Source: an uncultured Flavobacteriaceae bacterium
GTDB taxonomy: Bacteria > Bacteroidota > Bacteroidia > Flavobacteriales > Flavobacteriaceae
Assembly (NCBI GenBank): GCA_937136755.1
Contig: CAKZOR010000083.1
Coordinates: 1-64,000 of the forward strand
DNA length: 64,000 nt
Direction: 5' to 3'
Shown: in pieces, positions 37,149-39,974 of the stretch
How positions within the stretch are numbered: the first letter of the stretch is position 1
Layout: each line of letters opens with the position of its first letter
The notes under the pieces: model-generated
What the model was told of the DNA's origin: nothing
Seen by the model: the letters and a program-made list of their open reading frames with translations, nothing else
Database searches by the model: none
Position numbers and translations under genes: made by a program

Positions 37149-39974
37149 ATGTCAAAAAAAAGACTTTTCCTATTAGATGCTTATGCCTTGATATTCAGAG
37201 GCTATTACGCGTTAATTAAAAATCCAAGAATTAATTCAAAAGGAGAAGATACCTCTGCCATCATGGGATTTATGAATTCCTTATTCGATGTAATAAAAAG
37301 AGAGCAACCAGATCATTTAGCGGTATGTTTTGACAAAGGCGGTAGCAGTGAACGTACCGAATTATTTCCAGCTTACAAAGCCAATAGAGCAGAAACACCA
37401 GACGCCATAAGACTCGCAGTACCTTACATTCAAGAAATTCTTAGGGCCATGCACATTCCCGTAGTTGTTTTAGAAGGCTTAGAAGCAGACGACATTATTG
37501 GCACTCTGGCCAAACAGGCAGAAAAAGAAGACTACCAAGTATTTATGGTCACCCCAGACAAAGACTTTGGCCAATTGGTTTCTGAAAACATTTTTATGTA
37601 CCGACCCGCAAGAATGGGTAATGGGATTGAAATATGGGGTATTCCAGAGATCCAAAAAAGATTTGGCGTAGAGCGTCCCGAACAAGTCATAGATTACTTA
37701 GGAATGATGGGAGATGCCAGTGACAATATACCAGGACTTCCTGGTGTGGGTGAAAAAACAGCCAAGAAATTTTTAGCCGAATTTGGAAGTATGGAAAACC
37801 TTTTAGCCAACACAGACCAGCTCAAAGGGAAAATGAAGGAAAAGGTTTCTGAAAATGCAGCGCTTGGTTTACTGTCAAAAAAATTAGCCACCATTAATAT
37901 TCATTGCGATGTTACTTTTAATGCAGCTGCCTATGAGCTCAGTACACCAGATAGCGAAAAGGTCCAAGCCATTTTTGAAAAACTGGAATTTAGACGGCTT
38001 ACCGAGCAGTTTTTAAGGTTGTTTTTCGCGCCCAAAGAAACCCCCAATACTACAGAATCCAACACCCTTAAAAAAGCAGAACCAACTACTGCTGGAAGTG
38101 GACAATTTGGACTTTTTGACAGTGCAGAAAACAACTCAGAGGGAGGGCAAATATTCTCCTCAAGAAAGACTATAAATGAGGTTTCCCACCACTACCAATT
38201 GGTAGGTCCTGGCTTGGGTATGAAACTGTTTATCCAAAAATTATTACAACAACCTCAGGTGTGTTTTAACACTGAAACAACCAGCTTAGACCCTTTAGAA
38301 GCGAGCCTTGTAGGTATAGCATTTAGCTGGGAAGCCCATAAAGGATTCTACATATCCCTCCCAGAAGACCAGGAAGAAATAAGTGAAATCTTATCTGAAC
38401 TCAAGGCATTTTTCCAAAGCGAAGGCATTGAAAAGATAGGGCAAAACCTCAAATATGACCTTAAAGTACTCCACCGTTATGGCATTGAAGTAAAAGGCCC
38501 TTGTTTTGACACTATGCTAGCCCATTACCTCATCAATCCAGACATGAGGCACAACCTAAGTGTTCTAAGCGAAACTTATTTAAACTATACGCCTACAGCT
38601 ATTGAAACATTAACAGGTAAAGGCAAGCAAAAAATAAGCATGCGGGAAGTGGCGCTGGAACAGCAAGTAGCATACACGGTAGAAAGCGCAGACCTTTGTT
38701 TTCAGTTGGCCCAACAATTCAAAAAAGAATTGGCCGCAGCTGGAAATGAATCCCTCTTTACAGATATGGAAGCGCCCCTTCTAAGGGTATTGGCAGGCAT
38801 GGAATTAGAAGGCATTAATCTAGATGTGGCCTTTTTAAAAGAACTATCTGTCACTTTAGACAAGGATATTCTACAATTAGAAACAGATATTTACGAAGCC
38901 GCAGGAGAAACCTTTAATATTGCTTCTCCCAAACAATTGGGAGACATACTATTTGGAAAGATGCAATTGGTAGAAAAACCCAAAAAAACCAAGACAGGGC
39001 AATACTCTACTGCAGAAGATGTACTGTCTTATTTGGCCAAAGAACACAAAATAATTGCCGATGTTCTGGAATACCGTGGGCTAGCTAAACTTAAAAGTAC
39101 TTATGTAGACTCACTTCCGCTGCAAGTGTCTAAACAAACAGGAAGGGTACATACGGACTATATGCAAACCGTAGCAGCCACCGGAAGATTGAGTAGTAAC
39201 AATCCAAATTTACAGAACATCCCCATTAGAACCGAAAGAGGAAAACAGATCCGAAAAGCCTTTATTCCGAGAGACCAAGAGCATGTACTGCTGGCAGCAG
39301 ATTACTCACAAATAGAATTGAGGATCATAGCAGCACTCAGTGAAGAAGACAATATGATCGCAGCCTTTAAAGAAGGTGCAGATATTCATGCCGCCACTGC
39401 AGCAAAAGTATTTAATGTACCCCTAGCGTCAGTCACTAGGGAACAAAGGAGCCATGCCAAGACGGTGAATTTTGGTATTATCTATGGCGTATCTGCCTTT
39501 GGACTCAGCAATCAAACAGATTTGAGTAGGGCAGAATCCAAAGTACTCATAGACACTTATTATGAAAGCTACCCAAAGCTCAAGGCTTATATGAACAATC
39601 AAGTGAATTTCGCTAGAGAAAATGGCTATGTAGAAACGGTACTAGGACGTAGAAGGTATCTCAAAGACATTAATGCCAACAATGCTATTGTAAGGGGTGC
39701 CGCGGAACGAAATGCTGTTAACGCTCCTATTCAGGGAAGTGCCGCAGATATTATAAAGTTGGCCATGATTGCAGTTCAAAAGACACTAGACCAACAAAAG
39801 TTACGTACAAAAATGCTCCTACAAGTGCATGATGAATTGGTCTTTGATGTGTATAAACCAGAGTTGGAACAGGTCAAAGAACTCGTTAAATCTGCCATGG
39901 AAAACGCCTTTAAACTCATCGTACCTTTGGACGTAGAATTAGGGGTAGGCGAAAACTGGCTAGAAGCCCATTAA
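37149..39974 (+). CDS. polA: DNA polymerase I with degenerate proofreading domain
   Basis: Repair and Okazaki-fragment polymerase. The 941-residue protein has an intact 5' nuclease domain (1 to about 290; acidic residues in CFDKGG, EADD, TPDKDFG and GDASDNIPG), a 3'-5' exonuclease-like domain (about 345-540) and the polymerase domain (about 560-941; motif A LAADYSQIELR, O-helix RSHAKTVNFGIIYG, motif C QVHDELVFD). In the exonuclease domain, motif I reads FNTET with N374 where E. coli has D355; motif II NLKYD (N433, D437) is kept; motif III reads YTVESAD with S513 where D501 is expected. Loss of two of the metal-binding aspartates predicts weak or no proofreading. Confidence 0.96.
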   Translation: MSKKRLFLLDAYALIFRGYYALIKNPRINSKGEDTSAIMGFMNSLFDVIKREQPDHLAVCFDKGGSSERTELFPAYKANRAETPDAIRLAVPYIQEILRAMHIPVVVLEGLEADDIIGTLAKQAEKEDYQVFMVTPDKDFGQLVSENIFMYRPARMGNGIEIWGIPEIQKRFGVERPEQVIDYLGMMGDASDNIPGLPGVGEKTAKKFLAEFGSMENLLANTDQLKGKMKEKVSENAALGLLSKKLATINIHCDVTFNAAAYELSTPDSEKVQAIFEKLEFRRLTEQFLRLFFAPKETPNTTESNTLKKAEPTTAGSGQFGLFDSAENNSEGGQIFSSRKTINEVSHHYQLVGPGLGMKLFIQKLLQQPQVCFNTETTSLDPLEASLVGIAFSWEAHKGFYISLPEDQEEISEILSELKAFFQSEGIEKIGQNLKYDLKVLHRYGIEVKGPCFDTMLAHYLINPDMRHNLSVLSETYLNYTPTAIETLTGKGKQKISMREVALEQQVAYTVESADLCFQLAQQFKKELAAAGNESLFTDMEAPLLRVLAGMELEGINLDVAFLKELSVTLDKDILQLETDIYEAAGETFNIASPKQLGDILFGKMQLVEKPKKTKTGQYSTAEDVLSYLAKEHKIIADVLEYRGLAKLKSTYVDSLPLQVSKQTGRVHTDYMQTVAATGRLSSNNPNLQNIPIRTERGKQIRKAFIPRDQEHVLLAADYSQIELRIIAALSEEDNMIAAFKEGADIHAATAAKVFNVPLASVTREQRSHAKTVNFGIIYGVSAFGLSNQTDLSRAESKVLIDTYYESYPKLKAYMNNQVNFARENGYVETVLGRRRYLKDINANNAIVRGAAERNAVNAPIQGSAADIIKLAMIAVQKTLDQQKLRTKMLLQVHDELVFDVYKPELEQVKELVKSAMENAFKLIVPLDVELGVGENWLEAH

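Follow-up and report, generated by a model that had tools for sequence, protein, structure and literature searches.

The window (the whole 64,000-nucleotide stretch that we analysed) lies on contig C83 of a 1.96 Mb MAG with a completeness of 88.8%, whose nearest named relative on record is Sediminicola sp. Ww92 (itself a MAG), with Flavobacteriaceae bacterium LSUCC0859 more distant. It carries a polA gene with a reading frame unbroken across 941 aa, in which Pfam places PF02739, PF01367, PF01612 and PF00476 within one chain—the domain content of a bacterial PolA1 (Table 1). No other full-length family A polymerase turned up in that assembly; a second PolA was considered and rejected, the candidate being only a 58-position phage-like fragment on contig C110. 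The reading frame concerned (L002:459-1256, minus strand) starts as a family 2 glycosyltransferase and matches a phage-like family A polymerase over its last 58 positions, and is probably a contig mis-join. The asparaginase-like gene upstream of polA and the gene downstream are the same in the sister genomes G008 and G004, so that the window polA is the vertically inherited copy; horizontal replacement was rejected on the same grounds.

Table 1. The polA gene of the window, its domains and the residues of its 3'-5' exonuclease site (window positions).
Feature	Position	Strand	Remark	Basis
polA, DNA polymerase I, 941 aa	37149..39974	+	sole full-length copy found in genome assembly	
5'-3' nuclease domains (PF02739 + PF01367)	37161..37955	+	7 checked metal-ligand acids intact	
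3'-5' exonuclease domain (PF01612)	38223..38732	+	site altered, fold predicted to be kept; AlphaFold pLDDT mostly 80-94	
Codon AAC, N374 = E. coli D355	38268..38270	+	metal ligand lost; exo motif I FNTET	sequence + alignment
Codon GAA, E376 = E. coli E357	38274..38276	+	kept	sequence + alignment
Codon GAC, D437 = E. coli D424	38457..38459	+	kept	sequence + alignment
Codon TAC, Y509 = E. coli Y497	38673..38675	+	kept	sequence + alignment
Codon AGC, S513 = E. coli D501	38685..38687	+	metal ligand lost; exo motif III YTVESAD	sequence + alignment
Polymerase domain (PF00476)	38832..39965	+	12 checked catalytic positions = E. coli	

With residue equivalences taken from alignments to E. coli Pol I and its Klenow fragment (MAFFT, phmmer), the proofreading ‘DEDDy’ set (D355, E357, D424, Y497, D501) is seen to read N, E, D, Y and S in the window protein. 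Mutagenesis of Klenow has shown the metals to be anchored by Asp355, Asp424 and Asp501, all of them crucial (PMC9629493); the loss of two of these three anchors should, judged from the residues, abolish proofreading or very nearly so. A preliminary description of this DNA had reported both substitutions and proposed that the enzyme probably does not proofread, a proposal now supported by the residues, by faster change in the domain and by the predicted fold. The two codons are present and align on D355 and D501, and the catalytic residues it listed as remaining (E376, D437 and Y509) are indeed there; N433, which it counted with them, is also present (equivalent to E. coli N420) but is not a metal ligand. 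Its view that the polymerase and 5' nuclease motifs look intact holds at all 12 and 7 catalytic positions compared, every one identical to E. coli. A neighbouring Asp able to restore the metal site had been named as one observation that could overturn its reading; at sequence level, no replacement acid was found in the exonuclease domain of the window protein, and the only acid gained within the altered clade, besides neutral surface exchanges, is a Glu at 501 in its sisters.

One might still imagine that some exonuclease activity survives, reduced or changed in character, if E376, D437 and the new side chains (or Mn2+) keep the metal site together; the kept equivalents of E357, D424 and Y497 and the sisters’ Glu at 501 would be in keeping with this. 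We consider it quite improbable, since the window protein has only one of the three metal-anchoring Asps left and no acid in place of the others, and since another lineage of the same genus (L008/L009, below) is without nearly the whole site. For the sisters, D-to-N and D-to-E are milder changes than D-to-A, and trace exonuclease activity may persist.

The AlphaFold2 model of the window protein, built on an alignment of 24 relatives, is mediocre as a whole (pLDDT 72.9, pTM 0.61); the exonuclease domain mostly reaches 80-94, falling lower around residues 461-510. Compared by Foldseek with Klenow structures, the model gives TM-scores of 0.84-0.86 (normalised to the target), and the exonuclease fold is thus predicted to be kept, as the preliminary description had supposed. 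With its DEDDy set substituted and this fold predicted, the window protein groups, by sequence and model, with the Pol I enzymes of inactivated site.

Turning to close relatives, D355N is also found at the same locus in G008 and G004, whose PolA proteins are 96% and 95% identical to that of the window and which both have Glu at 501; G010 (94% identical, and with a motif I reading FDAET, not FDTET) and G006 (84%) retain Asp at the two positions. The alignment with other Flavobacteriaceae that had been suggested as a check returns Asp at 355 and 501 in all 78 loci L024-L101. In a nucleotide tree the three altered genes cluster with the intact L006 outside (SH-aLRT 94.9, UFBoot 87); an amino-acid tree from which the exonuclease domain was left out does not recover this grouping with any resolution. 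We infer an order of two steps: a single G-to-A transition (GAC to AAC) at 355 would have occurred in the common ancestor of the window and its two sisters, followed by separate drift at 501, to Glu in the sisters (GAA/GAG) and to Ser in the window (AGC). By these comparisons the loss in the window clade is recent, among the youngest in the family. That D355N/D501S reflects an assembly or sequencing error is a concern raised by the incompleteness of the MAG, but one we find hardly credible: D355N is present in three separate assemblies, the frame is intact, and, although D501S is seen in one assembly only, position 501 is changed in both sisters too. Within the window’s own GTDB genus, L008/L009 read A, L, Q, D, Y and L (‘ALQDYL’) at E. 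coli positions 355, 357, 420, 424, 497 and 501; they represent a second, independent and deeper erosion.

Rates of change point the same way. In three pairs from the altered clade, dN/dS for the exonuclease domain is 0.20, 0.38 and 0.14, and for the polymerase domain 0.06, 0.09 and 0.04 (respective Fisher p values of 0.006, 0.001 and 0.011, on small codon counts and with pairwise tests that share branches). In the altered genes the exonuclease domain has outpaced the polymerase domain by a factor of two to four. No significant rise was seen in the exonuclease domain of three intact control pairs. In every pair measured, dN/dS for this domain lies below 1, indicating that constraint is relaxed, not absent; well below 1 in the altered clade, it suggests a domain still under some constraint there. 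Taken with the residues, this leads us to regard the window protein as, very probably, an ordinary Pol I whose 3'-5' proofreading site has recently been inactivated by point substitutions under relaxed constraint.

To place the window within its family, 301 genomes were screened with a nucleotide pattern for FD-E...Y--ED. The intact motif was matched in 264; among PolA sequences from the pattern-negative genomes, 29 had the site substituted, and so, once read, did those of three pattern-positive genomes (that of the window, G000, together with G064 and G302). The site is therefore substituted in at least 32 of the 301 sampled genomes, a lower bound because the pattern gives false positives (the window genome matched once). 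Mapped by Fitch parsimony onto a PolA tree from which the exonuclease domain had been excluded, the site requires 19 changes, or 20 events if maximal ‘loser’ clades are counted; placing the window together with its sisters removes one event, leaving about 18-20 in all, a count made approximate by gene-tree error and long branches. Losses well supported by intact close sisters are those of L102, L157, L123/L124, L108, L119 and L008/L009. Erosion ranges from a single residue (L157 of G064, where D355N arose independently and every other ligand is kept) to nearly the whole site (L116). In G064 a second, partial match to PolA lies at C1:86684-87892, and a Y-family match is lacking; in G302 (C5:241429-244222) the polA matches fall in two abutting frames, which suggests a frameshift in the assembly or in the gene. 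More broadly, Pol I proofreading may have been lost repeatedly in the Flavobacteriaceae by a route on which D355N can be the first step (it stands alone in L157 and beside changes at 501 in the window clade), with closely related species that keep or lack proofreading forming a natural experiment on its worth in Pol I, and some losses perhaps selected; we offer this tentatively, and would sooner doubt it than assert it.

Loss of the Pol I 3'-5' site is, as such, already well known, and the window case is itself ordinary. According to a 2026 survey of more than 3000 bacterial species, the DEDDy set is substituted in roughly half of the Pol I orthologs, for the most part phylum by phylum and with no relation to genome size (PMC12926913); like the window protein, these substituted enzymes have three domains, with 5' nuclease and polymerase intact and the 3'-5' site substituted. 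Here, in contrast, loss is recent and recurs within one family whose members mostly keep the site, which qualifies the published view of inactivation as mainly phylum-specific; we found no description of such fine-scale recurrence within one family in the openly available literature. Taq and Bst (Geobacillus) Pol I likewise have a vestigial exonuclease domain beside a working polymerase (PMC13207698), but theirs are old and deeply changed, whereas the window protein is without only two catalytic residues. Pol I enzymes that are nearly identical yet carry D/D, N/E or N/S at 355/501 make both the worth of proofreading and the order of its loss directly measurable.

The closest functional precedent also frames an alternative. 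H. pylori Pol I (HP1470) is without all three Asps and shows no 3'-5' exonuclease activity in vitro (PMC3121766); as in the window protein, the equivalents of D355 and D501 are missing and the domain fold is thought to be kept (PMC3121766), although the window protein retains its D424 equivalent. Since the H. pylori enzyme performs translesion synthesis and promotes mutation (PMC3121766), loss could have been adaptive here, as has been proposed for H. pylori Pol I, an enzyme without proofreading bypassing lesions and raising the mutation supply, and the 18-20 or so recurrences would fit such an account. It nevertheless seems unlikely: H. pylori is without translesion polymerases, whereas Y-family members are kept in the window genome and in every other tested loser but one, and dN/dS below 1 throughout, with erosion going further in other lineages, is the pattern of relaxed constraint. 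The idea of a stand-in for missing translesion polymerases was rejected because G064 is the one tested loser without a Y-family match. A strong DinB-type match, which the window clade keeps, is absent from 20 of 36 losers versus 15 of 44 keepers (a hand tally; weak, and uncorrected for ancestry).

Other correlates fared no better. When each genus is represented by a single genome, losers have the smaller genomes (median 1.95 versus 3.35 Mb, Mann-Whitney p 2e-6), but the trend is gone across 16 loser/sister comparisons (9 of 16 smaller, p 0.80, with sizes rounded and many MAGs incomplete); the raw link thus probably stems from the shared ancestry of small-genome clades, and genome size was rejected as a cause. 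Loss of mismatch repair was also rejected, MutS1 lying above the cut-off in every tested loser.

Returning to relaxed constraint as the preferred reading, we propose a near-neutral cause of loss. The window Pol I would go on filling gaps and removing RNA primers, and the mispaired ends that it made would be left to mismatch repair (MutS), MutS1 being above the cut-off in the window genome also. The dead exonuclease domain would persist because it folds as the central portion of an enzyme that the cell cannot do without. Replicative proofreading would fall to DnaE, to which an intact exonuclease domain is fused: in the window genome this protein (G000:C58, L240:3-3029, minus strand) has an N-terminal DEDDh-type exonuclease with DxE and HxxxxD motifs intact, alongside other DnaQ-like proteins encoded in the same genome, and DnaE with such an N-terminal exonuclease is likewise seen in G003 and G006.
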